Positions 1 through 25,263 of a stretch of 37,714 nucleotides of DNA are shown here, piece by piece. Under the pieces are notes generated by a model. The model was not told the DNA's origin. It did not search any database and was given only the letters and a program-made list of their open reading frames with translations. The stretch is from assembly GCF_000420245.1 (NCBI RefSeq), contig NZ_ATUO01000015.1, forward strand, positions 1-37,714. Reading direction: 5' to 3'. The translations under genes and the position numbers were made by a program. The stretch is from Psychromonas hadalis ATCC BAA-638 (GTDB lineage Bacteria; Pseudomonadota; Gammaproteobacteria; Enterobacterales; Psychromonadaceae). Each line of letters begins with the position of its first letter. Position 1 is the stretch's first letter.

Positions 1-162
1 ATTATTCAAATATTAAAAGGTAATGCAACGCTAACATTTGAATCGGAGATAAGAGAAGTCAGTGCGGGGGCATGGGTACATATGGATGCACGACTTCCCC
101 ATAGCGTCATAGCAAAGACACCTCTTGTGATAATGGTTTATCTATTAAGAGAGCCTAAATAA
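1..162 (+). CDS. Cupin-type protein, C-terminal fragment
   Basis: The first 53 codons are open from the window edge to a TAA stop, so only the C-terminal end is visible. It reads as the last strands of a small beta-barrel: a stretch with LTFESEIREVSAGAWVHMDA followed by LPHSVIA. The spacing of acidic and glycine residues and the LPHSV turn match the second motif of the cupin fold, where a histidine often binds a metal. The protein is convergent with the Crp/Fnr regulator that follows. Cupins beside Crp/Fnr regulators are common in this group, but no specific function can be given from a fragment. The start and first motif lie outside the window. Confidence 0.6.
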   Translation: MIQILKGNATLTFESEIREVSAGAWVHMDARLPHSVIAKTPLVIMVYLLREPK

Positions 163-454: not shown

Positions 455-1213
455 TTAAAACCATTTCAAGGATAAATTACAGCAACCAAATAACGCTTCA
501 CTGCTTGGCTGTTTTGCTTTATTGCCCGCAATGTACGGAAAATTAGTCAATTTACACATCTGCTCTATATCCAGCAAGACCACCGTTTCACGCTTACCAC
601 TGATGACCCCAGCTTGACGGAAACGTTTAAATAAACGCGATAATGTTTCCGGGGTAATATTAAGTTGCCCCGCTAACACACTGTAACTAACCGGTAATGT
701 TAACCATTCACTCTGTTGCGCATGACGTATTTCCAGTAGATAAGAGACTAAACGCTGCCCGGCATTTTTAAGTGTTAGCTGGTCAACACGGTTTATCGCT
801 TGATGTAATTTATCTGACATAGCAGCTATAATTTGCATCGTAAAACGGGGGTTTTTATAACAATAATCAACAATTGCTTGCTGTGGAAAAACCACCAACT
901 CACAATCGGTTTGTGCTTTAGCGTTAACAGGATAAACCGCGGGTTGCATAAACATCACCGCCTCTGCAAGGGTATCGCCCTCTGTTAAGATTTGAAAGAC
1001 CTTCTCATCCCCCTCAGGAGAGTAGCGATATAAGCTCACCTGTCCCGATTTAATAAAGTAAAAACAATCACCCCGCTCCCCTTCATAAAATAGGTGTTTA
1101 CCTAATTTAACGGTTTTTAACTTGGCATTTCTGCCTATCTCATAAAACTCTGCCATCGAAAATTTATGAAAGAGCAGTGAGTTTTGCAAGTTGTTAGAAG
1201 TGATAGATAACAT
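455..1213 (-). CDS. Crp/Fnr-family transcriptional regulator (non-FeS type)
   Basis: A 252-residue regulator. Residues about 15-125 form the cyclic-nucleotide-binding-like sensor domain (EGERGDCFYFIKSGQVSLYR). A dimerisation helix follows at about 130-150, then a C-terminal winged helix with recognition segment ITPETLSRLFKRFRQAGVI. The E..SR triad in that helix is the one FNR and DNR proteins use to read TTGA half-sites. The N-terminal cysteine cluster that binds the FNR iron-sulfur centre is absent, so a DNR-like or other non-FeS signal is more likely. ATG at 1213 is preferred over the upstream TTG at 1216 because AGGG lies at a suitable distance. It diverges from the CopD-like gene, and the shared gap carries a TTGATAAATGTCAT palindrome that recurs at two nearby promoters, suggesting autoregulation and local control. 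The effector is unknown. Confidence 0.85.
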   Translation of the reverse strand: MLSITSNNLQNSLLFHKFSMAEFYEIGRNAKLKTVKLGKHLFYEGERGDCFYFIKSGQVSLYRYSPEGDEKVFQILTEGDTLAEAVMFMQPAVYPVNAKAQTDCELVVFPQQAIVDYCYKNPRFTMQIIAAMSDKLHQAINRVDQLTLKNAGQRLVSYLLEIRHAQQSEWLTLPVSYSVLAGQLNITPETLSRLFKRFRQAGVISGKRETVVLLDIEQMCKLTNFPYIAGNKAKQPSSEALFGCCNLSLKWF

Positions 1214-1226
1214 CAATTTTCCCTAA

Positions 1227-1286
1227 TTGATAAATGTCATGAGTGATTACTTAAAATCGCGTTAATCTTATTGAGAACCATTATCA
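1227..1286 (+). promoter_or_regulatory. Crp/Fnr-type palindrome plus Fur box, crp/copD promoter region
   Basis: TTGATAAATGTCAT lies at 1227-1240. TAATCT at 1263-1268 could be a -10 element. TGAGAACCATTATCA at 1272-1286 matches 12 of the 14 defined positions of the 7-1-7 Fur consensus TGATAATNATTATCA. The layout fits an activator centred near -41.5 with Fur overlapping the start of transcription of the CopD-like gene. The same palindrome may control the divergent regulator gene. Confidence 0.65.
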
Positions 1287-1344
1287 ATATAACCCAAAAG
1301 AGATAGAATACACAAATTACTTTTTTATTAAGGAAATAAAAAAA

Positions 1345-1785
1345 ATGAGTTATCCACTGTTAGTTACCCTGCACCTTTTATGCGCAACACTGTTCATTGG
1401 CATCGTCGCTTTTGAAGTGTTAATTTTAGAGGGAATACGCTCTCACCTTCCCGCTAAAACTATGTCATTGGTTGAGCAAGGCATTCATCTGCGTGGCAGA
1501 AAAATCATGCCTTGGGTGGTTGTTACCCTTTTTGTTACGGGCATCACGATGGCAACTATCCATTACCGCAACATCGGTTGGCCACTAGAAAGCAGTTTTG
1601 GCACGCTATTAATGGTCAAAATAATTTTAGCAACCAGTGTCTTAGTGCACTTTATTCTTGCCATGAAACATTCCATTTGTGGCGACATGACCAGTAAGCG
1701 TTTCAAATATACCCACCTCAGTGTGTTCTTTCATATGTTACTTATCATCCTGCTTGCTAAAGGCATGTTTTTTATCAGTTGGTAA
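1345..1785 (+). CDS. CopD-like four-helix membrane protein
   Basis: A 146-residue hydrophobic protein with four predicted membrane segments, at about residues 5-28, 54-75, 86-110 and 120-144. Histidines lie in or near the helices (H10, H48, H73, H102, H109, H124, H130), with a FGTLLMVKIILATSVLVHF stretch. This pattern fits the CopD family, a copper-resistance or putative haem/copper membrane fold. The similarly sized HemJ family is a weaker alternative, because its usual motifs are not evident. The start is set by AAGGAAAT just upstream. It is the first gene rightward from the regulator, has its own Fur box and Crp/Fnr palindrome, and precedes the secreted-protein cluster. Handling of copper, haem or electrons for the locus is inference. 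Confidence 0.6.
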   Translation: MSYPLLVTLHLLCATLFIGIVAFEVLILEGIRSHLPAKTMSLVEQGIHLRGRKIMPWVVVTLFVTGITMATIHYRNIGWPLESSFGTLLMVKIILATSVLVHFILAMKHSICGDMTSKRFKYTHLSVFFHMLLIILLAKGMFFISW

Positions 1786-1796
1786 TTTTTTTGTAA

Positions 1797-1853
1797 TTGA
1801 CAAATGTCATGTGTACAGAAAAAATACAGAACAGTTTTCGATAATGATTATCA
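1797..1853 (+). promoter_or_regulatory. Crp/Fnr-type palindrome plus Fur box before 1890
   Basis: TTGACAAATGTCAT lies at 1797-1810 and CGATAATGATTATCA at 1839-1853. The second matches the 7-1-7 Fur consensus at 13 of its 14 defined positions. The palindrome's flank (TTGTAA before, GTGT after) is identical to the copy at 2616. This gives the 1890 gene its own iron-responsive promoter. The -10 element is not obvious; CAGTTT near 1832 is the best candidate by spacing. Confidence 0.7.
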
Positions 1854-1889
1854 ATAAAAGATAAGTCTAATTGTTAAAAAGAGAACAGC

Positions 1890-2438
1890 ATGACATTACA
1901 AAAATCATTCGCTTTAGGTTTGCTATTAGGTTGTGCAAGTAGTACTTCATTTGCTGTCAATGAAGGCACATCAGGGTTAACGGGACAGTATATTGGTAGT
2001 TACCAACTGGAGGTACTTGATAGTAACGGGCAGGTAAAAGCAAACAGTTTACATACCTATAGTTGGCAGTGGGACTTTTATAATAAAACCATCTCAATAG
2101 ACACAGGTAAAATTTATAAAACACCGTTTAAATGGTTACATTTTAACTATGGCATCACGTCGAACATTCCGTTTATTGATAATGGAGATGGTACTTACAC
2201 GGCAAACTACATCTTTAAAGTAAATTACCCGTTCTTTTATAACCCTAAAGCACAGGCTTCAACCACTTTTAGCATTATTGATAACGCTGGTTCACTCACC
2301 ATCAGCAGTGTTGATATCGAATTAGATGGCACAAAAGATGGTTATCCAGGCACTAAAATACACGGTGAATTTCCGAAGATAATCCAACTTAACTGGCAAG
2401 GGAAAGCACAATTCTTTAGTAACGACGGGAATAATTAA
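1890..2438 (+). CDS. Secreted single-domain protein, paralogue 1 of a four-member local family
   Basis: I do not recognise the family. The 182-residue product has a signal peptide ending near SFA/VN (residue 23). One domain of about 145 residues follows. Landmarks shared with the three neighbours at 2704, 3286 and 7018 are: GLTGQYIGSYQLEV near the start; a W-x-WDF core (SWQWDF); DNGDGTYT; an aromatic-Pro stretch (NYPFFYNP); ASTTFSI; a D..DG.PGT.I.G.FP run; and a closing NWQGKA. The alternating pattern suggests a beta-sandwich, and the Asp/Gly loops could bind calcium. It has its own Fur box and Crp/Fnr-type site, so expression under iron limitation is likely. A periplasmic or surface ligand-binding role in iron or haem uptake is inference from context. 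Confidence 0.7.
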   Translation: MTLQKSFALGLLLGCASSTSFAVNEGTSGLTGQYIGSYQLEVLDSNGQVKANSLHTYSWQWDFYNKTISIDTGKIYKTPFKWLHFNYGITSNIPFIDNGDGTYTANYIFKVNYPFFYNPKAQASTTFSIIDNAGSLTISSVDIELDGTKDGYPGTKIHGEFPKIIQLNWQGKAQFFSNDGNN

Positions 2439-2615
2439 TAGCAACCGAGTGCTGAAAATAGTTACTATTATTTAATAAAAACAGTGCATTAACAAACAAA
2501 TGCAAAACAAAAAACATTCAAAAATGCATCAATAATTTTTGAAAAAATATAACTAATGGTTAACCAATGAAATGTACCAAACAACTATCTAAAAAAGCAA
2601 TTTATTTTATTGTAA

Positions 2616-2682
2616 TTGACAAATGTCATGTGTCTTTAAGTTAAATAGCATTAACCTATCAAAATAATGATAATGACTATCA
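2616..2682 (+). promoter_or_regulatory. Crp/Fnr-type palindrome plus Fur box before the 2704 operon
   Basis: TTGACAAATGTCAT lies at 2616-2629, TAACCT at 2652-2657 is a possible -10 element, and TGATAATGACTATCA lies at 2668-2682 (13 of 14 defined Fur-consensus positions; a 19-bp palindrome at 2666-2684). Spacing from palindrome centre to -10 equals that at the CopD-like promoter (29.5 bp). The rest of the 265-bp gap after 2438 is AT-rich and shows nothing else. Confidence 0.7.
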
Positions 2683-2703
2683 TTAAGAAAAGGAGTTACA
2701 CTA

Positions 2704-3204
2704 ATGATTTCAATTAAACGCCCACTTGCTGCAATAATATTCAGCCTATGCGCTTCCACTGCAATTGCAGGTACAGCGGGCTTAACGGGAAAATATGTCG
2801 GTGATTATCAAATGACCGTGCGTACAACAACAAACCAAACGATGGCTAAAACGGTACAAAATTATCGCTGGGTTTGGGATTTTGATGCAAAAACAGCAAC
2901 GATTAACCCCGGTTTTATTAGAAGCCACATGGCACTAATACCTATCGCTTATGCAGCCCATCAGCCTACTACTATTGATGATAATGGTGACGGTACTTAC
3001 ACAGTACATTATATCTTTCAAGCCTATAACCCATTGTTCGGTTTTCCATCTAGCCAAACTAGCACCACCTTTGAAATTACCGATACTGGTTTTGGCTTAG
3101 ATATAAAAACCTTAGATACAGATTCAAATGGTGTACCAGGATCTGCTATCTACGGTATTTTCCCATTTGATATAGAACTTGATTGGCAAGGGTCTGCTAA
3201 CTAA
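2704..3204 (+). CDS. Secreted single-domain protein, paralogue 2 of the local family
   Basis: A 166-residue protein with a clear signal peptide (cleavage near AIA/GT, residue 22), then one copy of the shared unrecognised domain. It carries the same landmarks in the same order as paralogue 1: GLTGKYVGDYQMTV, RWVWDFDAKTATINPG, DDNGDGTYTVHYIFQAYNP, SQTSTTFEITD, the DG.PGS.I.GIFP run and a final DWQGSAN. The protein ends right after the domain, so it is probably soluble and periplasmic or secreted. The start follows a strong AAGGAGTT. It is the first gene of a likely operon running through 8394, behind its own Fur box and palindrome. The ligand is unknown; iron-responsive expression is inferred. 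Confidence 0.7.
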   Translation: MISIKRPLAAIIFSLCASTAIAGTAGLTGKYVGDYQMTVRTTTNQTMAKTVQNYRWVWDFDAKTATINPGFIRSHMALIPIAYAAHQPTTIDDNGDGTYTVHYIFQAYNPLFGFPSSQTSTTFEITDTGFGLDIKTLDTDSNGVPGSAIYGIFPFDIELDWQGSAN

Positions 3205-3285
3205 GTATTCATTCAAAATAACAAACGTTAATCGTTAATAATTAATACAACGCCAGCTGCAAAGTTGGCCATTTCAAGGATACTC

Positions 3286-4884
3286 ATGAACAATAAAAAT
3301 ACACTTAAGCACATATTATTATGTGCTAGCCTCTTTAGCCCACAATTATTAGCGCAGCCACTGCAAGGGCAATATATGGGCCAATTTAGCTTAACCATGA
3401 ATACCCACAAAGATGACGGTATTGCAGGTAATGCTTGGCCTGAAGCAGCTTTAAACGCAGAATATAATGGTATTAAATACAAAAAACTGGGACAAACCAT
3501 TACTGATGGCCTTTGGTTGTGGGATTTTGATAAACAGCAAGTTGTGGTAGGCGGTAGCACCCTGTTTGCACTTGATCTTTTATATGTACCTTTTCAACTT
3601 TATAATCTTAATGAGCTAGAAAATAAACGTTTAGAAAGCTTCCCTGAAATTGCAAGTATTGATGAGATATCTATCCCATTTACCTATAATGCCCAAACAC
3701 AAATCTATACCATCAATTACGCACATAAAATGCACGTTATTCCACCAATAAAAGTAGAAGGTATTGCAGACTACCCAATTGGTGAAGCCACCGCTAATTT
3801 TCATATTACAATCACCAATAATAATGAGATAAAAATCAGCAGTGCTGATATTGAAAATAATGGTGCAGGACCAGATAATGTACCAGGCACTAAAATTCCA
3901 AATATTTTCCCTGCCGTTGTACAAGCACAGTACGAATCTGCAAAACTGTATAGAGATAATGGCATTGACAGTAATAATAATGGCATCTCCGATTTAGCAT
4001 CATATTTTTTAAATTTAAATAAAAAAATAGTCGATACTGATGGTGACGGTATTAATGATATCGATGAGATTGGGGTGTATCTTCGCCCTACCGATAGTGA
4101 TAGAGATGGGGTTGCCGATGTTTATGAGTTTGCTCAAGCTAAAGATGATAATACAATTTTATCTGGCTTTAACTTACAATATGGTGAAACCGTAACAATA
4201 AAATCTAATGATGCATTAGCGTTGACGCTTGCTCGCAGCCATCAAGTTGATCTTTCATTAGCGGAAGCCGCTATATTAGAAGGTGAAGAACCAAGTTTAA
4301 CCAACGAACAAGGTGTTCAATTAAACAATACATTAGGTGCGCTAAGCTTTCTTGTAAATCAAGTGAATACACTAGATACATTAAACTTTGATTTAACTTT
4401 TAAGCAGTTACCACCCGATCTTAAAATCTACCGTAAACAATATCAATTTAGCTTTACCACTTTCAAAAACACACTAACTTATCAACCCGTTAACTGGGTG
4501 GTAGACAGTAATGATATTAATACAATCCACATCGATTTTGCAAAAGCAGCACCAATGGGCTCAGTGGCCGACCAAGTAGAACTTATTCTATTAAATAGCA
4601 AAGACTATTATAAAATAAGTAAGCCTGGCACTGATAAACCAGTAACTGACAAACCAATCACTGATAAACCAGTAACTGACAAACCAATCACTGATAAACC
4701 AGTAACTGACAAACCAATCACTGAAAAGCCAGTTATTGAAGACACAACAACAGTGGAAGAACCAACAACCAGTAACACCAGCGACTCAAAAAGTGGCGGT
4801 AGTATGAACTGGTTCTTTGTGAGCTTATTAGGGTTGTTTGCATTAGGTCGTAAAAAATTAGCCACTGATAAGGCTAGCCGTTAA
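3286..4884 (+). CDS. Surface protein: family domain, Ca-type repeats, TDKP repeats, GlyGly-CTERM tail (paralogue 3)
   Basis: A 532-residue protein starting at the ATG behind AAGGA, not at an earlier in-frame codon at 3265. A signal peptide ends near LLA/QP. Residues about 25-220 hold the family domain, larger than in paralogues 1 and 2, with LWLWDFDK and a VPGTKIPNIFP run. Thrombospondin type-3-like calcium loops follow (DTDGDGIND, DSDRDGVAD; about 255-290). After about 155 residues of unassigned sequence come a Thr-Asp-Lys-Pro repeat linker and a tail SGGSMNWFFVSLLGLFALGR plus basic residues. That tail fits GlyGly-CTERM, which directs type II secretion and rhombosortase processing for surface attachment. 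Its stop overlaps the start of the TonB receptor, suggesting the two act together. Ligand capture for the receptor is inference. Confidence 0.75.
   Translation: MNNKNTLKHILLCASLFSPQLLAQPLQGQYMGQFSLTMNTHKDDGIAGNAWPEAALNAEYNGIKYKKLGQTITDGLWLWDFDKQQVVVGGSTLFALDLLYVPFQLYNLNELENKRLESFPEIASIDEISIPFTYNAQTQIYTINYAHKMHVIPPIKVEGIADYPIGEATANFHITITNNNEIKISSADIENNGAGPDNVPGTKIPNIFPAVVQAQYESAKLYRDNGIDSNNNGISDLASYFLNLNKKIVDTDGDGINDIDEIGVYLRPTDSDRDGVADVYEFAQAKDDNTILSGFNLQYGETVTIKSNDALALTLARSHQVDLSLAEAAILEGEEPSLTNEQGVQLNNTLGALSFLVNQVNTLDTLNFDLTFKQLPPDLKIYRKQYQFSFTTFKNTLTYQPVNWVVDSNDINTIHIDFAKAAPMGSVADQVELILLNSKDYYKISKPGTDKPVTDKPITDKPVTDKPITDKPVTDKPITEKPVIEDTTTVEEPTTSNTSDSKSGGSMNWFFVSLLGLFALGRKKLATDKASR
4630..4719 (+). 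repeat. Three perfect 30-bp tandem repeats inside the coding region
   Basis: Three identical 30-bp units at 4630-4659, 4660-4689 and 4690-4719 each encode TDKPVTDKPI, followed by one diverged half unit. The encoded Pro/Thr/charged linker lies between the folded part of the surface protein and its GlyGly-CTERM tail, where such a spacer would lift the protein off the membrane. Copy number probably varies by slippage without shifting frame. Confidence 0.9.
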
Positions 4885-7007
4885 TGCGACATACTTTAAA
4901 TCACAAACTACTGGTTGCCTTTTTGGCAACCAGTAGTTTTTTTTGTTATGCCGATGACGATATCAATAACAAAAATAATGAAAATACCGAGCGCATCGAA
5001 GTGATTGGTAATGATTCCTCCTTAGAGCAGATTGAGATTGAAGCCGATCTTGATCAAGTTGCTGGTGGCACAAATTTAATCAATCTCGATGCCTTTCATG
5101 GTAGCCAAAGCTCACTTGCCAAAGTGTTAAACTATCAACCGGGCATTGTGGTACAGGAATTTTTTGGCGGTAACGACCAACCACGTATCAATATCCGTGG
5201 CTCAGGCATTCAAGATAATCCTGTTAACCGCGGTATTCAGTTACTTTATGATGGTTTACCACTCAATCAAGCTGATGGCTCGTTTATTATTGGATTATTA
5301 GATCCTGAGCAAGCAAAATTCATCTCAGTATACCGCGGTGCCAATGCGGTGCGTTATGGTGGTACTACGTTAGGAGGGGCGATTAACTTGCACCCTCGTA
5401 ACGCGTTGAATAGCCAACAATCACTTAAACTTGAAACAGGTTCGTTTGGATTATTTAAAGCGGGTATTGCACTGGGTCAACAGCATAAAAACTGGGATTA
5501 TTACCTTAATGCAGCGCATTCTCAGCAACAAGGGTTTCGTAACCACAGTGAGGGTGAACGTAATAATATCGCCTTAAATATTGGTTTTACACAGCAAAAT
5601 TTTGAAAATAGAAGCTACTTTAATTACACCGATAACCAGTTTAATATCCCTTTTCTGTTAACCAAAGAGCAAGCGATAAACAATCCAGAATCGGTGATGG
5701 GCGAAGGTGACACGCCAATGGATACATTATTGGATATCAATATTCGCAAACCACTACGTCACAGTACACAACTGCGTTTTGCCAACAAAAGTAGCTATTT
5801 CAGTGAGTCTTCTAGCCACACATTAGGTGTTTATGCAGAGCATGTTGATGATACTTTTCGTAACCCGCTCACCCATGTGGTCACCACCAATAAAAATATT
5901 GGCGCAGATTACGCCTTTAGCCACCAGCAACTTGATGAGCAATACCGAGAAACCGATTACCTGCTCTTTGCCTCGGCAAATGCGGGCGTTATGCCACGCT
6001 CTTTTCATGCGATTAATCCCATTAATGGCGCACTGATGCAACAGTTTGCCAATATTGATCAGTCAGCCAGCAACCTTATTTTAGGAGGGCAAATAAACTA
6101 TCCATTAACCGATAACATTAAAACATTGGCCTCTTTACAATGGGTTAATAATCGTCGCGTTATAAAAGATCTGCAAAACCCCGGTCTGTTAGACAGTACG
6201 TTTTCTTATACCGTTATTAACCCTAAAGTAGGGCTTATCTACACAACGGATCAGCAACAGCGCTATTTCAGCAACTTCAGCACTAGCTCAGAAGCACCTA
6301 ATTTTTGGCAACTAAGCACGGTGGCAGCCAATCCCAACGATCCACTCAATAACTATGTTTATATCAATGACTTGAAGATGCAAACCGCCTCAACATGGGA
6401 GATTGGCACACAACAGCGCTATCAATCTTTTAATTGGGAACTCACCTACTACTACTCGATAGTTGAAGATGAGCTTATCTCTGTGGTGGGTGATTTTGCG
6501 GTTAATGGCAAAACGATCAACTACGCAGGAGATACCAGCCACCAAGGTGTTGAATTTGCACTTAACAGCCGTTACCAAGCCGTGTTTAGTGATCAGGATG
6601 AGATCGCCACCAAGTTTATTTATAACTACAGTGATTTTCGCTTTGAAGAGGGGCTATATGAGGGCAACCAAATCGCAGGAGTGCCCAACCACCTCATTCA
6701 AACAGAGTTAAGTTATCTGCCTATTAAAAATTGGTCACTGAGTACTAACCTACGCTGGCAACCCACAGATACTTGGGTTGATCATCTGAACAGTGAGTCA
6801 GTAAAACAAGATGCTTACTTTTTATTAGGGCTTAAAAGTAGTTATCAATATAATCAAACATTCAAACTGTTTATCGAGTTTAATAACATCACCAATGAAA
6901 CCTATCAAAGTGCTTATGTTATTCGTGGTCAAAGCGCCCCAGACCTGCCCACTTTTATTCCTGGTGCAGGTTTTAACTTCTCAGCTGGATTCTCTGTTAA
7001 TTGGTAA
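4884..7007 (+). CDS. TonB-dependent outer-membrane receptor
   Basis: A 707-residue receptor. The signal peptide ends near CYA/DD. A Ton box (ERIEVIG) lies at about residues 37-43. The plug domain follows to about 180, with PGIVVQEFFGGNDQPRINIRGSG, a VYRGANAVRYGGTTLGGAINL block and GIQLLYDGLPL. The rest is the 22-strand barrel, ending in a terminal aromatic residue (SAGFSVNW) as the BAM machinery requires. The plug style resembles receptors of the FecA/ferric-chelate class, but the substrate cannot be read from sequence. Its ATG overlaps the stop of the 3286 surface protein (TAATG), indicating translational coupling. Paralogue 4 follows after 10 bp. It probably belongs to the Fur-controlled unit starting at 2704. 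Vitamin, copper-chelate or haem substrates remain possible. Confidence 0.9.
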   Translation: MRHTLNHKLLVAFLATSSFFCYADDDINNKNNENTERIEVIGNDSSLEQIEIEADLDQVAGGTNLINLDAFHGSQSSLAKVLNYQPGIVVQEFFGGNDQPRINIRGSGIQDNPVNRGIQLLYDGLPLNQADGSFIIGLLDPEQAKFISVYRGANAVRYGGTTLGGAINLHPRNALNSQQSLKLETGSFGLFKAGIALGQQHKNWDYYLNAAHSQQQGFRNHSEGERNNIALNIGFTQQNFENRSYFNYTDNQFNIPFLLTKEQAINNPESVMGEGDTPMDTLLDINIRKPLRHSTQLRFANKSSYFSESSSHTLGVYAEHVDDTFRNPLTHVVTTNKNIGADYAFSHQQLDEQYRETDYLLFASANAGVMPRSFHAINPINGALMQQFANIDQSASNLILGGQINYPLTDNIKTLASLQWVNNRRVIKDLQNPGLLDSTFSYTVINPKVGLIYTTDQQQRYFSNFSTSSEAPNFWQLSTVAANPNDPLNNYVYINDLKMQTASTWEIGTQQRYQSFNWELTYYYSIVEDELISVVGDFAVNGKTINYAGDTSHQGVEFALNSRYQAVFSDQDEIATKFIYNYSDFRFEEGLYEGNQIAGVPNHLIQTELSYLPIKNWSLSTNLRWQPTDTWVDHLNSESVKQDAYFLLGLKSSYQYNQTFKLFIEFNNITNETYQSAYVIRGQSAPDLPTFIPGAGFNFSAGFSVNW

Positions 7008-7017
7008 GGAAATTTAA

Positions 7018-8394
7018 ATGTTTAAAACACGAAATTCAGGGCTTATTTTTATCCTGTTCAATCTTTTTTTCGGGCAATTCAATGCACTTGCTCAACCCCT
7101 TGATACCACTAATCTAAGCGGTATATATGTCGGTGATTATCGCATAACCATGCGCGCAGCTCCCACGGGCGCGATTCTAGGTAATGGTGTACATACCGCT
7201 AAATGGCAATGGGATTTTGATACAAACACAGCAACCGTTGAAGGCACCACATTATCCGTTGGTTTTAATTATGCACTTCATGATATTGGCAATGCCAGTG
7301 CAACCGATGAAACGCTTTATTTCGATAATAATGGCGATGGAACTTATCGCCTCTATTATTCATTACAAATTTATCACCCTGGTTTAGGCAACCCAATGGC
7401 AAGTGCATCAACCACCTTTAAAATAACCGCCATCGGTAATCAACTACAGATAAACACCATCGATGCTGAAGATGGACCGCTTGATGGCATTGTTGGCACG
7501 CAAATAGCGGGGGTATTTCCATTGACCATTGAACCCGATTTACGCGGTACGGCGGTACAAAAAGGAGCAGATTCAGACGGAGATGGTTTAAGCGATCAGC
7601 AGGCAATTGAGTTAGGTCTTGAGCCTAATGATAATGACAGTGATAAAGATGGTATCGATAATATCACTGAAATTGGCAATGATGTGAGCAACCCCATCGA
7701 CAGTGATAACGATGGCATCATCGATGCGCTTGAATATGGTGAGGCAGCTAACGATGCCCAAATTGGCATGGGATTAAAACTCGTTTCAGGGGATTTTGTT
7801 GAACTAAAAACAGCATCAAATTGGGCGTTAAAAGCAATTATGTCGGGTGATATGCAACATAGAGTGGATAACCTTGACAGCATTGAAGATATTGCCAATA
7901 CCGACTCAACCTTAGGCGATCCGGGGCTTACTTATCACTATGGCAATATTAGTTTTAACACTTATCAAACTAACAGCGCAAGCACTGATGATAGCAGTAC
8001 CGTTACATTCAACTTCTCAACGGCTCTTCCTGAGAAATTATTGCTTTATAGCATTGAGGCCACAGGAGAAAGCGAACTGTATCGTTTGATGCCAACTTCT
8101 GCTTGGCAACGCTTAGGCACAAACAGCATCGCCATCACTGTCGTTGATGGTAGTGCATCTGATATTGACCAGCAGGTTAATGGCACAATCTCCCTGTCGA
8201 TTGCCATCACAGGGAATAACTTAGGGGATATTCAGCGTAACGATCATGTCAGCGCAGGCAGTTTACATTGGTTACTTATTCTGAGCATGATGCTACTCAT
8301 TATCCTGCGATTTTATAACAAGTCAGCCACCATAAAGGGTTTGATACAAGCCCTCTTGTTTTACAAGCTCACTGTGATTGCCCGATTGTGCTAA
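7018..8394 (+). CDS. Surface protein: family domain, Ca-type repeats, GlyGly-CTERM-like tail (paralogue 4)
   Basis: A 458-residue protein with a signal peptide ending near ALA/QP. The family domain spans about residues 35-180 and carries every landmark: LSGIYVGDYRITM, KWQWDFDTNTATV, DNNGDGTYRLYYS, ASASTTFKIT, DGIVGTQIAGVFP. Acidic thrombospondin type-3-like repeats follow at about 185-240 (DSDGDGLSD, DNDSDKDGID, DSDNDGIID). A region of about 170 residues of unknown fold comes next. Near the end, SAGSLHWLLILSMMLLIILR then FYNK resembles a divergent GlyGly-CTERM sorting tail. Some 25 further residues follow, and this last part overlaps the 3' end of the convergent ABC gene by 72 bp. AAGGAAAT sets the start, 10 bp after the receptor, so it is cotranscribed. 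Confidence 0.7.
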   Translation: MFKTRNSGLIFILFNLFFGQFNALAQPLDTTNLSGIYVGDYRITMRAAPTGAILGNGVHTAKWQWDFDTNTATVEGTTLSVGFNYALHDIGNASATDETLYFDNNGDGTYRLYYSLQIYHPGLGNPMASASTTFKITAIGNQLQINTIDAEDGPLDGIVGTQIAGVFPLTIEPDLRGTAVQKGADSDGDGLSDQQAIELGLEPNDNDSDKDGIDNITEIGNDVSNPIDSDNDGIIDALEYGEAANDAQIGMGLKLVSGDFVELKTASNWALKAIMSGDMQHRVDNLDSIEDIANTDSTLGDPGLTYHYGNISFNTYQTNSASTDDSSTVTFNFSTALPEKLLLYSIEATGESELYRLMPTSAWQRLGTNSIAITVVDGSASDIDQQVNGTISLSIAITGNNLGDIQRNDHVSAGSLHWLLILSMMLLIILRFYNKSATIKGLIQALLFYKLTVIARLC

Positions 8395-10092
8395 GCGACC
8401 ATCTTCTAAGACATAGATAATATCGGCTTGCTTAACGGCTGAAAGACGATGGGCAACAATCAATGTTGTCCTGCCAACCAAAAAGGTTTGTAACGCAAGA
8501 TGTAGTTTTCGCTCGGTACGGGTATCTAATGCCGAGGTGGCTTCATCTAAAATGACTAACTTAGGATCGCTTAACACCATGCGCGCAATCGCCACACGTT
8601 GTCGTTGTCCGCCTGAAAGACGTACGCCACTGCGGCCCAGTTGTGTCTCTAATCCTGCATTGAGCTGTGCTTTTAAGTCTCCTAGCTGTGCAACCTGTAA
8701 CGCATTCCATAACTGTTTATCGGTGTAATCGATGCCTAATGAGAGGTTTTCTCGTAGGCTACCATTAAACAAAATGGGTTGCTGTAAGACCACGGCAATG
8801 TTAGTGCGAATAAGATCAAAACCAATATCTTCACAGCGCTGACCATTAAATAAGATCTCACCACTATTAATAGGATAAAGCCCTAACAATAGCTGTATCA
8901 AGGTAGATTTTCCGCCACCACTTGCCCCCACTAAGGCCACTTTTTTTCCTGCGGGTAGGGTTAAACTGAGATTTTTTAACACCTCACGTTGCTCATTGTA
9001 GCCAAAGCTTACATTTTTAATCTGCACTGAAATAGCGCTGTTATTGATAAAGGGATCCACTTTACTGGGCAGTTTTTTCTCTTCTTCGAGTTGCAGTAAG
9101 GTATTAATGCGTTTAATGGCGGCCGATGCGCTGTACCAAGAGAATTGAATACTCAGCAGCTCTTGTACTGGCGACAACATAAACCATAAATAACCAAATA
9201 CCGCAAACATCTGACCAATGCTTAAATCACTAAACAATACCAACAACATCGCCACCGCACGAAACAGTTCAAACCCTAAGAGAAACAGTAAAAAGGAGAA
9301 ACGATTTACCGCTTCAGATTGCCATGCGTATTTATCGGCACTCTCTTTGATGGCGTCGCTGTCCATTTTTAGTTTATCGATGAATGTTTTTTCTCGATGA
9401 CAAGCACGTAGCTGATAGATAAGATCTAAGGTTTCAATGAGCCTATTTTGAAAGTTTTCAAACGCTTGGTTTTCTCTCTTTTTCAGACGCTGCACACGAC
9501 TGCCTAATAAACGCGAAAAAGCCACCACCATCGGATTGACCAATAAAATAAATAAGCCTAAGCGCCAATCTATCCACAATAAAATAATCGCAGTACCTAA
9601 TACCGTGAGCAGGCTAATTAAAAAACGGCTCACCGTACTACCAATAAATTTATCGATGGTTTCAACATCAGTAATAATGTGTGAACTAATACCGCCACTG
9701 CCACGTAGTTCATATTGTGAGATACTGATCCGGCCTAATTTTTGTAGCAATATATGGCGCATCTGACAGGTGATATTTTTAGAGATAAGGATAAATTGAC
9801 GGCTCTGCCATACCCCCAATAGCAGTGAGATAATACGCATTAAAATGACACAAATAAAGATAGTGACAATATAATAAGCGGGTTGTTGCCAGCTAACAGG
9901 CAGCCATTGATTCATAAAATCGATACCCATATCAGGCTTATTTAACAAGACTTCATCAACCATCAATGGCATCAATAAGGGGATAGGCACACTCACCAAA
10001 GTGGCAATAAGGGCGATAATATTTGCTAACAATAGCCGTTTTTTATGTTGTTTAACCTGCTGAATTAACCAAGCCCAATCAATATTTTTCAT
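8323..10092 (-). CDS. ABC exporter, fused membrane and ATPase domains
   Basis: A 589-residue half-transporter of the MsbA/exporter type that should work as a homodimer. Residues about 15-310 form the six-helix membrane domain. The nucleotide-binding domain from about 350 has all motifs intact: Walker A GASGGGKST (389-397), Q-loop near 438, signature LSGGQ (492-496), Walker B LVILDE with the catalytic glutamate at 517, and the switch histidine in AHRLS (548). No peptidase or lipid-A-specific feature marks its cargo. It points towards the GlyGly-CTERM gene and overlaps it tail to tail. The start follows AAGGA. Only 18 bp separate its start from the hmuY terminator, so either leaky termination or a promoter inside that hairpin must drive it. 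A role in the iron locus is positional inference. Confidence 0.85.
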   Translation of the reverse strand: MKNIDWAWLIQQVKQHKKRLLLANIIALIATLVSVPIPLLMPLMVDEVLLNKPDMGIDFMNQWLPVSWQQPAYYIVTIFICVILMRIISLLLGVWQSRQFILISKNITCQMRHILLQKLGRISISQYELRGSGGISSHIITDVETIDKFIGSTVSRFLISLLTVLGTAIILLWIDWRLGLFILLVNPMVVAFSRLLGSRVQRLKKRENQAFENFQNRLIETLDLIYQLRACHREKTFIDKLKMDSDAIKESADKYAWQSEAVNRFSFLLFLLGFELFRAVAMLLVLFSDLSIGQMFAVFGYLWFMLSPVQELLSIQFSWYSASAAIKRINTLLQLEEEKKLPSKVDPFINNSAISVQIKNVSFGYNEQREVLKNLSLTLPAGKKVALVGASGGGKSTLIQLLLGLYPINSGEILFNGQRCEDIGFDLIRTNIAVVLQQPILFNGSLRENLSLGIDYTDKQLWNALQVAQLGDLKAQLNAGLETQLGRSGVRLSGGQRQRVAIARMVLSDPKLVILDEATSALDTRTERKLHLALQTFLVGRTTLIVAHRLSAVKQADIIYVLEDGRLAQSGNHSELVKQEGLYQTLYGG

Positions 10093-10197: not shown

Positions 10198-11316
10198 TTA
10201 CTCAGTGATCTCTTGGTAACGGAAGACTAAGTTAGCACTTGCAAGCTCACCGTTTTCACCATAATTACTCAGCAGTTGCATTTTAAACAGGCGTGTACCG
10301 CTTGCCGCTTCATCTTTAATCAAGTAAGTGGTGAAAGTTGGCCACATTTTGTGTCCACCATCAACTGCATACTGTAGCGGTCCATAATTACCTGGCGCAC
10401 TTAATACACCCGATGCTGAATCGGCAAAGTATTTGTATACTTGTGTTGTATCGACTGGATCCGTAACATCATCAAGCTTGACCATGACAGCACCTGATCC
10501 ACCTTTACCCTCACCAGAAGCACCCCCATTAATTTGCAGTGGGTAATCTCGACCATTTACGGTTAAGCTTAGATCCCAATCAGCATTTTCAGCAACAAGA
10601 GTATTTGTTTCTAAATCCCAAAATACACGCTTACTACTAAAATCTAAAACAGGTGAATCAACAGCAGCGGCAAAGACTGAACCATTCCATAATTCCGTTG
10701 AAAGCGTCACTTTACGTGTAGTCGTTGCACCAAAAGCCACTTCAACTGTTTTCACTTTAACACGTGAATATTCCTTGCCATCCGCAGAGCGAATTATCCA
10801 GCCATTGCCTGCTTTAGCGCTATATACTGGCGCACCTTGACTATAATCAGCATCCAGCCAATTTTCTGTTTTGATGGCTGTTTTAAGGGTATCAAATTTA
10901 AACTCTGTGCAACTACTTGCATCTACTTTGTCAAAATCCGTTAGTGTAGAAGCGTCTGTTAACGCTTTAAATTTATCAACAACCGGATTACCCTCTTTAT
11001 CAAAAAGGTTGCTATATTCATGCGCAACACAACCACTCACTTTGCCGCTCGCTGAAACACCACCATTGAGTTTAAAACCTAAATATTTTTGGTAAGCGAT
11101 TTGCCATGTATCATCTGTCACTGCACTTGCAGAAACAAAGTCTAGTTTTGCAGCTTGGCTACCATCTGTGGCATCAAGTACAACCGTGCTATATTTTGGT
11201 AGTTCAGGTGCAGGTGGATCAGGTGTTTTATCATCACTTGATGAGCTTCCACAGGCACTTAGTAGCGCAGACGAAATAAGGACTGCAAGCAGTTTTTTTG
11301 AGGTTAAAAGGTTCAT
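10198..11316 (-). CDS. hmuY: HmuY-family haem-binding lipoprotein
   Basis: The ATG at 11316 is chosen over an earlier codon because GGAGA precedes it and it opens a proper lipoprotein signal: MNLLTSKKLLAVLISSALLSAC with lipobox LSAC, acyl cysteine 22. The mature part shows the HmuY signature: DDTWQIAYQKYLGFKLNGG at about 68-86, and a second similar block ADWDLSLTVNGRDYPLQING at about 245-264 with a GASGEGKGG loop. The C-terminus FKMQLLSNYGENGELASANL is typical of the family. At 372 residues it is longer than Bacteroidetes HmuY and seems to hold two related halves. Known HmuY proteins take haem from host or environmental haemoproteins and pass it to a TonB receptor. Here the receptor gene lies 59 bp upstream on the same strand, under a Fur-box promoter. 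Haem is the likely ligand but is not proven by sequence. Confidence 0.8.
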   Translation of the reverse strand: MNLLTSKKLLAVLISSALLSACGSSSSDDKTPDPPAPELPKYSTVVLDATDGSQAAKLDFVSASAVTDDTWQIAYQKYLGFKLNGGVSASGKVSGCVAHEYSNLFDKEGNPVVDKFKALTDASTLTDFDKVDASSCTEFKFDTLKTAIKTENWLDADYSQGAPVYSAKAGNGWIIRSADGKEYSRVKVKTVEVAFGATTTRKVTLSTELWNGSVFAAAVDSPVLDFSSKRVFWDLETNTLVAENADWDLSLTVNGRDYPLQINGGASGEGKGGSGAVMVKLDDVTDPVDTTQVYKYFADSASGVLSAPGNYGPLQYAVDGGHKMWPTFTTYLIKDEAASGTRLFKMQLLSNYGENGELASANLVFRYQEITE

Positions 11317-11375
11317 AGTATCTCCATATAGTATAAAAATGTAACGGTTAAAAATCAAAAGCAAGTTAAAAGAGG

Positions 11376-13397
11376 TCAGCCAGTAAAACGCACACCTAAG
11401 TAGATGAAACGGCCACTTTCAGGTCTAAAATCATCACCCGTTAAAGGCACATCACGCGTGGTTCCCATTAAGTTATCAATACCCATAAACAGGGTTAAGC
11501 TATTGCTAATATCGGTGTTTATTTTAAAATCAAAGGTCGAATAAGCAGGTGAAATGATATTGTTATCTGCATCCACAAATTGCTCACTTTGATAATTTCC
11601 ATACAATGAAAAAAGGGTATTGATAGGTTGAACTTGATAGTTCACTTTGAATTTAGCTTGATGTCTTGGACGCTGTGTCAGCTGCTTATCAATTTCTAAA
11701 TTAATGGCATCAAGATAGGTGTAAGAGATATTTGATGATAAAGACTCCGTAAACGCGTACCCGGAAGTGATATCTATCCCTTGGGTACGTGCTTTACCAA
11801 TATTGCTATATTTATAAATACTTAACCCAGTTGCATTGGAGTCTTGTTCATCCAACTCGGTGCTAATGAGATTTTTAATGTCGTTATAGAAGAAATTTAT
11901 ATCGGCATGAAAGTTGTCGTTGTAATTGTATTCTGCGCCCACTTGTAAGCTTGTTGACGTTTCAGGGGTAAGATCTGGGTTGCCTATTACCATATAGCCT
12001 AACGCGCTATGATCAAAAATATAGTGACGCTCTTTTAAGGTGGGTACACGGTAACCACTGCCGATACCAACACGAAATTTCATCTGTTGATCAAGCCAAT
12101 TAGGGGAGTACATCAAATTTATTTTCGGTGCAATATGAGAGCCAAAATCACTGTCATTCTGATAACGAATACCCGGTAGTAGCTCTAACTCATCACCAAT
12201 GAAAATATCGTTTTGTGCATAAAACTCAACACTTGAGCGCGTTTTCTCACCCTGCATCTCATCAACAATCACCACCTCATCAGCCGTTCTTTTAGCTTGT
12301 GTTTGCGATAAACTATTTTGCAGGCCAACAATACCAAAGGTAAGCAACTGATTATCACCTAATGGATGATCAAACTGTACTTCGCCTTTATTAAACTGAC
12401 TCTCACCTAAACGACTTTGATCAATGTAACCGGTCGATAATATATCTTGATCGGTACTATCAGTGAAGTTTTCAAACATATACCAAGCAGAAAGTTCCCC
12501 TTTCTCAAACAGCGGTGTATCAAAGCTAATGCTGATACTTTTACGCTTCGCCTCTTCCAGCTTCTCTTTTTTTACCTCACCAATACCCGGCACATAACTG
12601 CTAAAGTTTTTATTAATATCTTCATGATAATAACTCGGTGCAATCATCAGCTCAGCGCCTGTTGCAAAACGATAACCTAACTGTGCAGAAAGATTGCTTT
12701 TAGTACCTGCATCCCCCTCAAAAGCCCATGTCGAATTGTCTAAATCTGTGCCTTGTTTATAACGCAGATCCGCCATTAACTGACCAAACCAACGACCACT
12801 GTTGTGACTAATAAAAAAGTTAGCATGGCTATTATTAAATGGACTATCACCGACGTTTTGCTCACCATGCGTGCCAGAATCGAGGGTTACCTTATAAGAT
12901 GTACCTATTTTAGCGCGCTTGGTGATCACGTTGATCACCCCACCCATCGCGGAGCTGCCATACAAAGCAGAAACGGAGCCTTTTACTATTTCAATATGCG
13001 CCACATCGGCCACCGCGATTTGACTAAGATCGACACTTGCTCCCGTAGAAGCAGAGACAGGTTTTCCATCAATTAATACCAAAACACGATCAGCATCAAA
13101 CCCTTGTAACCAAACCTCTTGACCGCTTTTTCCATGAATCGGTTTTAACACCACACCCGGGACATTTTGTAATGCTTCAGCGAGATCGCGTGCATGGCTA
13201 TTTTTTAGCTCTTGGGCTGTAACAACTTCAATGCGCACAGGGCTATCTACTAAGCGACGCTCTGTTTTGGTGCCTGTTATGACCAGCGTCTCTTCTGTTT
13301 CACTCTCAGCAAGTAACGGCAAACTTATTGCGACAAGTATGCCTAGCAATAACAAATTTCTTCGGTAATGTTGTTTTAAGAAGTGTCCACTCGCCAT
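11376..13397 (-). CDS. TonB-dependent receptor, haem type (HmuR-like)
   Basis: A 673-residue outer-membrane receptor. The signal peptide ends near LLA/ES, and the Ton box EETLVITG lies at about residues 36-43. The plug domain carries LAEALQNVPGVVL, a VLVLIDGKPV strand and GSVSALYGSSAMGGVINVIT. In the barrel, YRVPTLKERH with a nearby DHS and then GNPDLTPE (about 450-480) resembles the FRAP/His/NPNL arrangement of haem receptors; the RVP and NPDL parts also occur in other receptor classes. The last residues alternate in the usual terminal strand. The ATG at 13397 is preferred to the GTG at 13400. It is the first gene of an operon with the HmuY lipoprotein, behind a Fur box. Transport of haem taken from HmuY is the expected role. 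Confidence 0.85.
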   Translation of the reverse strand: MASGHFLKQHYRRNLLLLGILVAISLPLLAESETEETLVITGTKTERRLVDSPVRIEVVTAQELKNSHARDLAEALQNVPGVVLKPIHGKSGQEVWLQGFDADRVLVLIDGKPVSASTGASVDLSQIAVADVAHIEIVKGSVSALYGSSAMGGVINVITKRAKIGTSYKVTLDSGTHGEQNVGDSPFNNSHANFFISHNSGRWFGQLMADLRYKQGTDLDNSTWAFEGDAGTKSNLSAQLGYRFATGAELMIAPSYYHEDINKNFSSYVPGIGEVKKEKLEEAKRKSISISFDTPLFEKGELSAWYMFENFTDSTDQDILSTGYIDQSRLGESQFNKGEVQFDHPLGDNQLLTFGIVGLQNSLSQTQAKRTADEVVIVDEMQGEKTRSSVEFYAQNDIFIGDELELLPGIRYQNDSDFGSHIAPKINLMYSPNWLDQQMKFRVGIGSGYRVPTLKERHYIFDHSALGYMVIGNPDLTPETSTSLQVGAEYNYNDNFHADINFFYNDIKNLISTELDEQDSNATGLSIYKYSNIGKARTQGIDITSGYAFTESLSSNISYTYLDAINLEIDKQLTQRPRHQAKFKVNYQVQPINTLFSLYGNYQSEQFVDADNNIISPAYSTFDFKINTDISNSLTLFMGIDNLMGTTRDVPLTGDDFRPESGRFIYLGVRFTG

Positions 13398-13404
13398 CAC
13401 TTAG

Positions 13405-18200: not shown

Positions 18201-19070
18201 ATGAAAGCAGAAAATAAGATTGATGAGTTATTACCTCATCAAATCACAGAAAAAGCGGATGAGATTGCTTACAGTAAAGCAACCAAAGCGTTTCTGTCTG
18301 CTTTTTACCTCGCCATTACCGCGGGTATGTTTATTAGCCTTGCATTTGTCTTCTATATTACCGTCACCACAGGTGCAAACGATCTCCCTTGGGGCATCAA
18401 AAACTTTATTGGCGGTCTGGCATTTAGTCTCGGACTCTTATTAGTTGTTGTTGTCGGAGGTGAACTCTTCACCAGTAGTACCCTTACCCTTATTGCTAAA
18501 GCAAGCCATAAAATTACTACCGCACAGATGTTAAAAAACTGGGCTATTGTCTATTTGGGTAACTATGTAGGCGCCACTTTTTTGGTGTTTTTAGTGTTTT
18601 TTGCGAGCATGTATATGGGTGATAATGGCCAATGGGGGCTCAACGCATTAAACATTGCAGAACATAAACTACACCATTCTTTTACTGAAGCCGTTACGCT
18701 AGGCATTTTATGTAATATTATGGTTTGTTTGGCTATTTGGATGGCTTTTGGCGCACGTAGTGTCACTGATAAAATGTTTGCAGTTTTACTGCCAGTTGCT
18801 ATGTTTGTCTCTTCAGGTTTTGAACACTGTATCGCAAACATGTTTATGGTACCAACAGGCATTATGATTCAACACTTTGCGCCTGCTGAGTTTTGGACTG
18901 TAATAGGTCACTCTGCCCGTGAGTTTTCATATCTAAATAGTAGTAACTTTATTATTAACAATTTAATACCCGTGACTATCGGTAATATTATCGGTGGTGG
19001 CGTTATCGTTGGTTTGATGCACTGGATGATCTATCTTCGTCCCCTGCAAAAAATCAATAAAAAATCTTAA
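18201..19070 (+). CDS. focA: Formate channel FocA
   Basis: A 289-residue inner-membrane protein of the formate/nitrite transporter family, which forms pentamers and moves formate made by pyruvate formate-lyase across the membrane. Six membrane segments are visible. Family signatures include FIGGLAFSLGLLLVVVVGGE followed by LFTSS, a GNYVGA helix start, and the FEHCIANMF stretch with the pore histidine. Length agrees with E. coli FocA (285). It lies 30 bp before pflB in the canonical focA-pflB order, behind a perfect FNR site, so the two should be cotranscribed and induced without oxygen. Confidence 0.97.
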   Translation: MKAENKIDELLPHQITEKADEIAYSKATKAFLSAFYLAITAGMFISLAFVFYITVTTGANDLPWGIKNFIGGLAFSLGLLLVVVVGGELFTSSTLTLIAKASHKITTAQMLKNWAIVYLGNYVGATFLVFLVFFASMYMGDNGQWGLNALNIAEHKLHHSFTEAVTLGILCNIMVCLAIWMAFGARSVTDKMFAVLLPVAMFVSSGFEHCIANMFMVPTGIMIQHFAPAEFWTVIGHSAREFSYLNSSNFIINNLIPVTIGNIIGGGVIVGLMHWMIYLRPLQKINKKS

Positions 19071-19100
19071 CTTTTAATCTAACTATAAAGGTAAATCTTT

Positions 19101-21386: not shown

Positions 21387-21447
21387 AGAGTATTTTGATA
21401 AAAAAGCATAGATAAACAGGTTAACTTTAAACTTACCCTGTTATACT

Positions 21448-21486
21448 AAAAAAGGTTTCATCCGCAAGGGTGAAACCTTTCTTTTT
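21448..21486 (+). terminator. Terminator after pflB
   Basis: AAAGGTTTCA at 21451-21460 pairs with TGAAACCTTT at 21471-21480; the stem extends inward through a wobble pair to a GCAA tetraloop, and CTTTTT follows. It separates pflB from pflA, so pflA likely relies on readthrough or its own promoter. Confidence 0.9.
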
Positions 21487-21551
21487 ATATGAAGAATAAT
21501 TATTTAAGAGTCACTGCGCAGCGATTACATAATTATTTTTAGGAGTTACCA

Positions 21552-22292
21552 ATGTCAGTTATTGGACATATTCATTCTATCGAAACTTGTGGCACCGTTG
21601 ATGGCCCAGGTATTCGTTTTATCATCTTTTTACAGGGCTGTTTAATGCGCTGTAAATATTGCCATAACCGCGATACGTGGGATCTCGATGGTGGTAAAGA
21701 TATGACGGTCGATGAACTGATGACTGAAATGTTGCAATATCGCCATTTTATAGAGGCATCTGGTGGTGGCATTACCATCTCAGGTGGCGAAGCAATGTTA
21801 CAACCTGAATTTGTACGCGCGATGTTTGAAGCGTGTCGTTTAGAGGGCATTCATACTTGCCTTGATACCAACGGTTTTGTACGTCGTATTGATGACACCA
21901 CAAAATCAGTGCTTAATGTGACTGATTTAGTCTTACTCGATATCAAGCAGATGGATAATAAAAAACATATCGACTTGACCCATGTCAGTAATAAATACAC
22001 CCTTGACTTTGCAAAGTATTTAGCCGATCAGAATCAACCTGTTTACCTACGTTATGTGGTTCTCCCAGGTTATACCGACAGTATTGAAGATGTACATGCA
22101 TTAGGTCGCTTTATCGCCCCAATGAAAAATATCGAAAAAATAGAGATGTTACCTTACCATGAACTTGGCAAGCATAAGTGGACGGCGATGGGTGAAATTT
22201 ACCCGCTAGACGGTGTTAACCCACCACCACGTGAGACCATGGAAGAGCTAAAAAACATTCTTCTACAATATAACGATGACGTCCTTTATTAA
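21552..22292 (+). CDS. pflA: Pyruvate formate-lyase-activating enzyme
   Basis: A 246-residue radical-SAM enzyme that uses a [4Fe-4S] cluster and S-adenosylmethionine to create the glycyl radical on PflB. The cluster motif CLMRCKYC (C30, C34, C37) is intact. It is preceded by [13 protein letters not shown], typical of the family, and followed by the [14 protein letters not shown] strand that holds SAM. Length matches E. coli PflA (246). The start is set by AGGAG. It lies 165 bp after pflB, beyond a terminator. Flavodoxin is the usual electron donor. Confidence 0.97.
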
Positions 22293-22308
22293 TAATTTTA
22301 TACGGGAA

Positions 22309-22336
22309 CAGGACTTCAGTCCTGCTCTGTTTTTTA
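22309..22336 (+). terminator. Terminator after pflA
   Basis: CAGGAC (22309-22314) and GTCCTG (22319-22324) pair around TTCA, followed by CTCTGTTTTTT. Confidence 0.85.
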
Positions 22337-22369
22337 ATAAAAGATAAAACACAAAACTAACGAGTCTCC

Positions 22370-23200: not shown

Positions 23201-23298
23201 GGGATCGTTACAAAATAACTTGCTATAAATTGTTTCCAAAAAGCCTTAGGGGACTGGCTATTTTAAAAACAAAATCGCAAGTAATATTGAAGCCAATC

Positions 23299-23748: not shown

Positions 23749-23858
23749 AATAACCTCCTAAAATGCCATCTAATCTTAACAAAGATTACCACAAACAGCG
23801 AAAGCTTAAATAGTTAATGGAAAAATTGATTTTAAATAGTTTTTCCCTAAATCTACTT

Positions 23859-25183: not shown

Positions 25184-25209
25184 TCTATAATAGATAAATA
25201 TCTTAATTT

Positions 25210-25238: not shown

Positions 25239-25263
25239 ACATCCTTATTTAAAAGGAATCGTC

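Follow-up and report, generated by a model that had tools for sequence, protein, structure and literature searches.

A rare gene block in Psychromonas hadalis links predicted exported paralogs to a TonB-dependent receptor and probably encodes a dually regulated uptake module

Results

An unnamed domain recurs in four proteins around a TonB-dependent receptor

The window analyzed here is the whole of contig C15 (37,714 nt) from the 3.98 Mb genome of Psychromonas hadalis (G000). Our subject is a block of genes near its start, in which a TonB-dependent receptor stands between two long proteins and is preceded by two bare-domain proteins, a small CopD-like membrane protein and a divergently transcribed regulator of the Crp/Fnr family (Table 1). 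Open reading frames at all coordinates given for the block were verified as real. The start codon (ATG) of the receptor gene shares one base with the stop codon of the gene for long protein 1, and long protein 2 follows the receptor gene after 10 bases.

The original prediction held that the products at 1890, 2704, 3286 and 7018, all of which carry signal peptides as judged by eye, share one domain. This is borne out: pairwise BLAST among the 1890, 2704 and 7018 domains gave 118, 103 and 93 bits, the 3286 domain matched the other three at 33–46 bits, and the joint alignment of the four contains 20 invariant columns out of 211, W-x-WDF among them. The motif NGDGTY occurs in three of the four domains, as had been claimed. 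The proposed series of ordered landmarks held with small corrections: W-x-WDF is present throughout, but 3286 reads LxGxYxGxF, and in place of the 'PGT' run 2704 has PGS and 7018 has VGT. The domain was also rightly said to lack a named family, with no family matched in Pfam or NCBIfam profile searches. Membership in a known family was rejected as well by a PDB sequence search, which returned 10 weak matches (filamin-type and others; best E 0.029), and a literature search found no paper on the domain or the block.

A structural model of the 2704 domain, built from 17 sequences, is all beta (predicted local distance difference test, pLDDT, 91.2; predicted template modelling score, pTM, 0.84). 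Foldseek comparisons cover the best 50 of 750 rows for the domain model and the best 50 of 814 for the receptor model. Among the 50 rows listed for the domain, the highest probabilities belonged to BcnB (0.98; template modelling score, TM, 0.48/0.42) and to the C-terminal barrel of NHBA (0.97 and 0.89), followed by a designed membrane barrel (0.96), a PBP2a fragment (0.91), OmpA (0.87 and 0.85) and retinol-binding protein (0.77). From the model we read the domain as a putative small barrel of the lipocalin or NHBA/TbpB type, taking the NHBA-type barrel to be akin to that of TbpB; this is a lead, not a test. Seven residues are invariant over the 17 domain rows: G7, G11, W34, D37, F38, D116 and G124.

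The two long proteins had been predicted to add Asp-rich calcium-type repeats and surface-sorting tails. The repeats are visible in both, although the Pfam TSP3 family matches only weakly and only in 3286 (10.8 of 25 bits). As for the tails, 3286 carries GlyGly-CTERM (TIGR03501, 17.7 bits, over the cut-off of 15.5), whereas 7018 falls under that cut-off at 12.8 bits and passes choice-of-anchor U instead (NF041766, 43.6 bits against 32). By eye, most long proteins end in Gly/Ser, a hydrophobic stretch and basic residues. PF05568 matched residues 447–484 of the 3286 repeat linker, outside the domain (26.1 bits, over the cut-off of 23.6), which we take for a match of composition. Rhombosortase (TIGR03902) exceeds its cut-off in G000, G014, G024, G737 and G759, which are all five of the receptor-linked genomes described below, and not in G725; 0 of 14 control genomes exceed it, while all 14 have family matches under it. 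In Vibrio cholerae, according to PMC6219818, rhombosortase and type II secretion together bring the GlyGly-CTERM protein VesB to the cell surface.

The predicted receptor between the two long proteins was confirmed, its plug (PF07715, 50 bits) and barrel (PF00593, 103.3 bits) both scoring over cut-off. Neither the siderophore receptor profile TIGR01783 (111.2 bits against 223.5) nor the haem receptor profile TIGR01785 (75.8 against 316.85) reaches its threshold. Among the 50 rows listed for the receptor model (pLDDT 83.5), the closest solved fold was PqqU (TM 0.82/0.84), followed by siderophore receptors and FecA; no haem receptor appears among those rows, and OprC comes earliest at rank 38. 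Haem receptors carry a His between their FRAP and NPNL boxes, and the receptor alignment has no conserved His between the corresponding regions.

Table 1. Features of the gene block at the start of the window
Feature	Position	Strand	Remarks
Crp/Fnr-family regulator	455..1216	-	Divergent from block; Pfam over cut-off
Near-palindromic box TTGATAAATGTCAT	1227..1240	.	Exact pattern TTGAYAAATGTCAT
Fur-like box	1272..1286	.	2 mismatches to 7-1-7 consensus
Small CopD-like membrane protein, several conserved His	1345..1785	+	PF05425 below cut-off
Box TTGACAAATGTCAT	1797..1810	.	Pattern match
Fur-like box	1839..1853	.	1 mismatch
Bare-domain protein 1 (predicted exported)	1890..2438	+	Closest relative in tree is the bare protein of L019
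Box TTGACAAATGTCAT	2616..2629	.	Pattern match
Fur-like box	2668..2682	.	1 mismatch
Bare-domain protein 2 (predicted exported)	2704..3204	+	Domain of this protein modelled
Long protein 1: domain, Asp-rich repeats, Lys/Pro/Thr/Asp repeat linker, GlyGly-CTERM tail	3286..4884	+	TIGR03501
TonB-dependent receptor, FFGGxDQPR plug type	4884..7007	+	Pfam plug and barrel
Terminator-like hairpin, 15 pairs, T run	4905..4939	+	Within receptor signal-peptide codons
Long protein 2: domain, Asp-rich repeats, choice-of-anchor U, GlyGly-like tail under cut-off	7018..8394	+	NF041766

The block recurs in few genomes with its gene order kept

Searches with the domain alignment were run on drawn, overlapping genome samples with one genome per species, the window's own genome being counted in all but the sample from the genus of G024. 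The domain turned up in 3 of 60 relatives, in three genomes each from the samples of the order (394 genomes) and the class (369 genomes), in one of the 11 genomes from the genus of G024, and in one of the 398 from the phylum. Scanning genome contigs with the domain gave two loci, one of them in the G014 contig. Six genomes in total bear it: G000, G014 (same genus; block L019), G024 (another family; block L021), the Vibrio genome G759 (block L020), G737 (locus L037) and G725 (locus L036). No match to 2704 or 7018 occurs among 72,556 plasmid records, and spread of the domain by plasmids was rejected.

In five of the six bearers a close receptor lies beside the domain, G725 being the exception. 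G000, G014, G024 and the Vibrio block share one gene order, namely the divergent Crp/Fnr gene, the CopD-like gene, the bare domain (two copies in the window), long protein 1, the receptor and long protein 2. In G737, at a contig end, the gene for the long protein overlaps the receptor gene by 11 bases. The receptor itself was matched at E ≤ 1e-60 in 11 genomes of the class sample, its own included; one match is close (G737, 50% identity, a domain bearer) and the other nine are 28–34% identical. The regulator, searched at E ≤ 1e-40 across 24 genomes of the genus, is present in two, exactly those that bear the domain. The gene set is apparently inherited as a unit in a few marine bacteria.

A maximum-likelihood tree of 17 domains, rooted at the midpoint, separates the proteins by type: long 1 (support 100/99), long 2 (98/94) and, more weakly and below the starred level, bare (85/87), with four rows in no group. 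Each type requires one label change on the tree. Because the three types group separately, the duplications seem older than the spread of the block, and the lineage at each position seems to have stayed distinct from one family to another. Such separately kept lineages seem to match what would be expected of parts with distinct jobs.

In the G725 locus (L036:9019-12255, minus strand), a small domain protein with a VPLPA-CTERM-like tail, seen by eye, lies with an 810-residue two-domain protein that has choice-of-anchor D and U regions.

A 14-base box is paired with a Fur-like box at the promoters of the block

Each of three intergenic stretches of the block (1217-1344, 1786-1889 and 2439-2703) contains TTGAYAAATGTCAT and then a Fur-like box, at distances of 45, 42 and 52 bases, respectively (start to start); all promoter boxes reported here are sequence matches. 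The exact 14-mer has three copies in the genome, all within the block. Allowing one mismatch adds seven genome sites, and a backward control gives six, so we regard the one-mismatch sites as noise. The three Fur-like sites at ≤2 mismatches in the window all fall in these same stretches, a number reached in 2 of 100 shuffles. Three matches also arise in 10 of 100 shuffles once the 14-base box is allowed ≤2 mismatches; the three observed are exact. We then scored pairs, defined as a box at ≤1 mismatch and a Fur site at ≤2 mismatches within 70 bases. The window has three, L019 two, and L020 and L021 one each; none of 300 window shuffles has any, and L036 and L037 have none. All four blocks have an exact copy of the 14-mer in the gap that separates the Crp/Fnr gene from the CopD-like gene, with 45, 41, 44 and 45 bases to the Fur site; the L020 copy overlaps with the start of the Crp/Fnr frame as listed. 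This pairing of a 14-base near-palindrome with a Fur-like box at three window promoters, recurring in the other three blocks, is new here.

A candidate partner of the box is the divergent regulator, which matches cNMP_binding (72.6 bits) and HTH_Crp_2 (59.1 bits) over cut-off. Its recognition helix reads E-x-x-S-R (PETLSRLFKRF), with ETLSR in 6 of 6 aligned regulators; by the E-x-x-S-R rule relating recognition helix to half-site, this helix fits a putative FNR/DNR-type half-site. No N-terminal Cys cluster was seen by eye, and a CC near the C-terminus is kept in the four blocks. A classical Crp box was rejected as the site: it has 17 window matches at 1–2 mismatches, none in the intergenic regions of the block.

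Elsewhere the signals vary. The L037 upstream region carries a perfect FNR-type palindrome in place of the box. Receptor relatives of the FFGGxDQPR type are found on Diaphorobacter, Providencia and Azospirillum plasmids. The Providencia relative, of about 31–32% identity, is preceded by the exact 14-mer with a 3-mismatch Fur-like site 54 bases on (no shuffle control was run for this pair), and adjoins a Crp/Fnr gene whose product is 33% identical to the window regulator. The Diaphorobacter stretches examined hold a two-mismatch FNR/DNR-type site and no Fur-like site, and the Azospirillum stretch a one-mismatch FNR/DNR-type site with a four-mismatch Fur-like site.

A CopD-like protein and a hairpin accompany the receptor

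The CopD label of the small membrane protein is a loose one, with PF05425 at 19.9 bits against a gathering cut-off of 32.1; the protein is 73–95% identical in the three other blocks. Relatives at 37–53% identity occur in five other genomes of the class among 340 (L066–L070). Their neighbors include NnrS and a bacterial globin (L068), NorB (L069) and a HisKA_3/LuxR-type pair (L067); NnrS, globin and NorB hint at nitrate or nitric oxide physiology. We found no regulator-like gene at E ≤ 1e-5 in L066–L070, of which L066 and L070 end at a contig edge beside the CopD-like gene. Within these five loci, then, the CopD-like gene is not seen with the block regulator outside the domain blocks.

The hairpin in the signal-peptide codons of the window receptor has a z-score of -6.29. 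Uninterrupted hairpins of 8 and 9 pairs, of unrelated sequence, sit at the same place in L020 (which has one G-U pair) and L021. L019 has an interrupted hairpin with a 9-pair outer stem there, which the uninterrupted-stem scan does not count, and L037 has none, so 3 of 5 loci pass that scan. The background frequency of such hairpins is 0.05–0.06 per 100 bases (window, L020 and L021), and the loci other than the window give modest z-scores (-1.4 to -1.8, and 0.9 in L037). The element may be an attenuator or processing signal that yields less receptor than capture protein.

Neighboring genes of the window

To the left of the block, positions 1-162 (plus strand) hold the end of a cupin-type protein, recognized by eye and cut by the contig edge; over 53 residues it shares 34% identity with a protein annotated as a cupin and encoded near the Providencia relative of the receptor. 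To the right, at 10198-13400 (minus strand), lie genes for a lipoprotein resembling HmuY and a second TonB receptor, and the same genes come after the block in G014. We liken the lipoprotein to HmuY by what we take to be a motif of that protein; it matches PDB 8b6a weakly (E 5e-4) and no Pfam family at E ≤ 1. Two 3-mismatch Fur-like sites, at 13441 and 13682, lie upstream of this pair. Farther on (18201-27429, plus strand) are fermentation-type genes for a formate/nitrite transporter, a pyruvate formate lyase-like protein, a radical SAM protein, acetate kinase and phosphate acetyltransferase.

Discussion

Together, the association of the domain with the receptor, the control signals and the separate paralog lineages, all computed directly, mark the block as a rare gene set that is probably dually regulated and, as we infer, serves TonB-dependent uptake. 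We consider it reasonably probable that it forms a self-contained uptake module working as follows. The four domain proteins would be exported. The module would be expressed under iron starvation, when Fur is released, together with a signal sensed by the Crp/Fnr protein; judging from the genes neighboring its relatives, that signal would most likely be low oxygen or nitric oxide. The long proteins are predicted to leave the cell by type II secretion and to be anchored through rhombosortase, and the bare barrels may be released or kept in the periplasm. The barrels would bind a scarce, probably iron-bearing ligand and hand it to the receptor, which the hairpin at the start of its gene would hold scarcer than the capture proteins.

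The uptake role claimed originally stands in so far as the domain belongs with the receptor: beyond the adjacency in five of six bearers, the only close receptor kin among the ten other genomes matched in the class is the domain bearer G737, and Fur-like boxes are present in all four full blocks. Several observations weigh against it. In the 19.5 kb of the G725 locus no receptor, regulator, CopD-like or second-receptor match was found at E ≤ 1e-3, nor any box pair; the link of the domain itself to uptake is thus not an exclusive one. In L037 the box is missing, and the Fur-like sites are at three mismatches only. In the 10–15 kb fetched around each of the nine receptor relatives at 28–34% identity the domain was not found (best 3.3 bits), nor was it in the three plasmid loci (best 1.2 bits). 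The G024 receptor (L021:9703-11873) reads as two overlapping pieces in different frames, and may be a broken gene or a sequence error. GlyGly-CTERM exceeds its cut-off in 2 of the 10 long proteins scanned (long protein 1 of the window and of L021). The domain model found no PDB match at E ≤ 0.001 in Foldseek, its fold matches being weak, and none of its invariant or nearly invariant columns over the 17 rows is His, Cys or Met, leaving no obvious metal or haem ligand.

Some of these facts feed a different account, in which the barrels protect or adjust the receptor, perhaps against phages or bacteriocins, or else are general surface proteins with no tie to it beyond shared regulation. Both the G725 set, with no receptor in 19.5 kb, and the lack of a binding site among the conserved residues suit this account; three paralog types kept in order around the receptor under shared Fur-like control suit uptake better than shielding, and we judge a guarding or general surface role quite unlikely.

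If the barrels do serve uptake, the Fur-like boxes favor a ligand that carries iron, for which haem is one option; copper is a second possibility. Pyrroloquinoline quinone (PQQ), the cargo of the closest solved relative, was rejected: the PqqU signature, which in PMC12124388 consists of aromatic Y99, R304 and R365, is replaced by P, V and F in the window receptor. It is also unmatched in the related receptors H1, H6 and H9, and NF041535 scores 80.6 bits against a cut-off of 1200. Hints of iron come from a cluster for haem uptake and use beside the G014 block and from an annotated iron permease of the ATP-binding cassette (ABC) type beside the Providencia receptor relative.

Haem or another tetrapyrrole, with the barrels as haemophores of an accessory haem system, would be a special case of the uptake module. 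The G014 cluster (L019:633-8390) speaks for it, with HutX, HutZ and a haem ABC ATPase over cut-off, a FecCD/BtuC-type permease and ExbD-like genes under cut-off, and a TonB C-terminal domain over it. So do the HmuY-like lipoprotein and second receptor genes of the window and of G014, and the position of the Diaphorobacter receptor relative near cobN. That cluster, however, adjoins the block in G014 only; the window has its cupin fragment at this place, and L020 and L021 have other genes. With the receptor wanting both the conserved His and an adequate haem-profile score, and the domain a conserved His (though a conserved Tyr could serve), we regard haem as unlikely. Copper, imported as a chelate by the receptor and moved inward by the CopD-like protein, appears very unlikely. 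DUF2946, the family to which the copper-sensing leader in the bfrG operon of Bordetella belongs (PMC9426467), is encoded next to the remote L054 receptor (5007-9150, minus strand) in an arrangement resembling that operon; PepSY_TM genes occur in L051 and L054; and SCO1 and PCuAC genes lie upstream of the L020 block with two other genes between. Yet the DUF2946 neighbor belongs to a receptor of 28% identity, the CopD match is under cut-off, the barrels have no conserved Cys, His or Met, and all four full blocks carry Fur-like boxes.

Returning to the uptake module, its nearest likeness in receptor structure is PqqU (YncD), by sequence (E about 6e-21) as well as by fold. PqqU is not known to have secreted partners. 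The pairs TbpA/TbpB, haemophilin HphA with its receptor, HmuY/HmuR and BtuB/BtuG join a TonB receptor to a surface or secreted partner. The block resembles them in placing an exported partner beside the receptor, and the weak fold matches of the domain include the C-terminal barrel of NHBA. It differs in its predicted export by type II secretion and rhombosortase rather than lipid anchor and Slam, and in its three paralog types per receptor; no sequence relation was found in Pfam or PDB, and the four barrel proteins do not match at E ≤ 1 the HmuY family that Pfam presumably holds. Surface lipoproteins of the Slam/type XI secretion system carry a lipobox and a C-terminal 8-strand barrel and use a DUF560 translocon. 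The domain resembles NHBA weakly (E 0.042), and by eye 1890 has a possible lipobox, LLGC, whereas the other three have none. VesB-type GlyGly-CTERM proteins share the tail type of long protein 1, and rhombosortase is over cut-off in the window genome, but VesB is a protease (PMC6219818); titles and opening lines of abstracts on GlyGly-CTERM, rhombosortase and TonB revealed no such TonB partner. The Diaphorobacter, Providencia and Azospirillum plasmid loci share the FFGGxDQPR motif and, in the first two, a local Crp/Fnr gene; the Providencia locus has the same 14-base box, and the Azospirillum locus has NnrS genes. Unlike the block, they have no barrel domain; all three hold ABC-transporter genes, and two hold cupin genes.

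Though we think it less likely than not, the block may represent a new class of TonB partner. Calycin-like barrels would be exported through type II secretion and rhombosortase, each receptor would be served by three barrel types that are inherited together, iron and the Crp/Fnr protein would jointly control the block by way of a private box, and a hairpin in signal-peptide codons would set the ratio of capture protein to receptor. Most of the surface capture proteins known to feed TonB receptors are lipid-anchored, and many come from host-associated bacteria. If our reading is true, the block would be a marine version of surface capture that uses another route of export and anchoring, with several barrels for each receptor and a regulator of its own. 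It would give an unnamed domain a testable role, and tie the FFGGxDQPR-type branch of as yet unassigned receptors to Fur-like and Crp/Fnr-type control.

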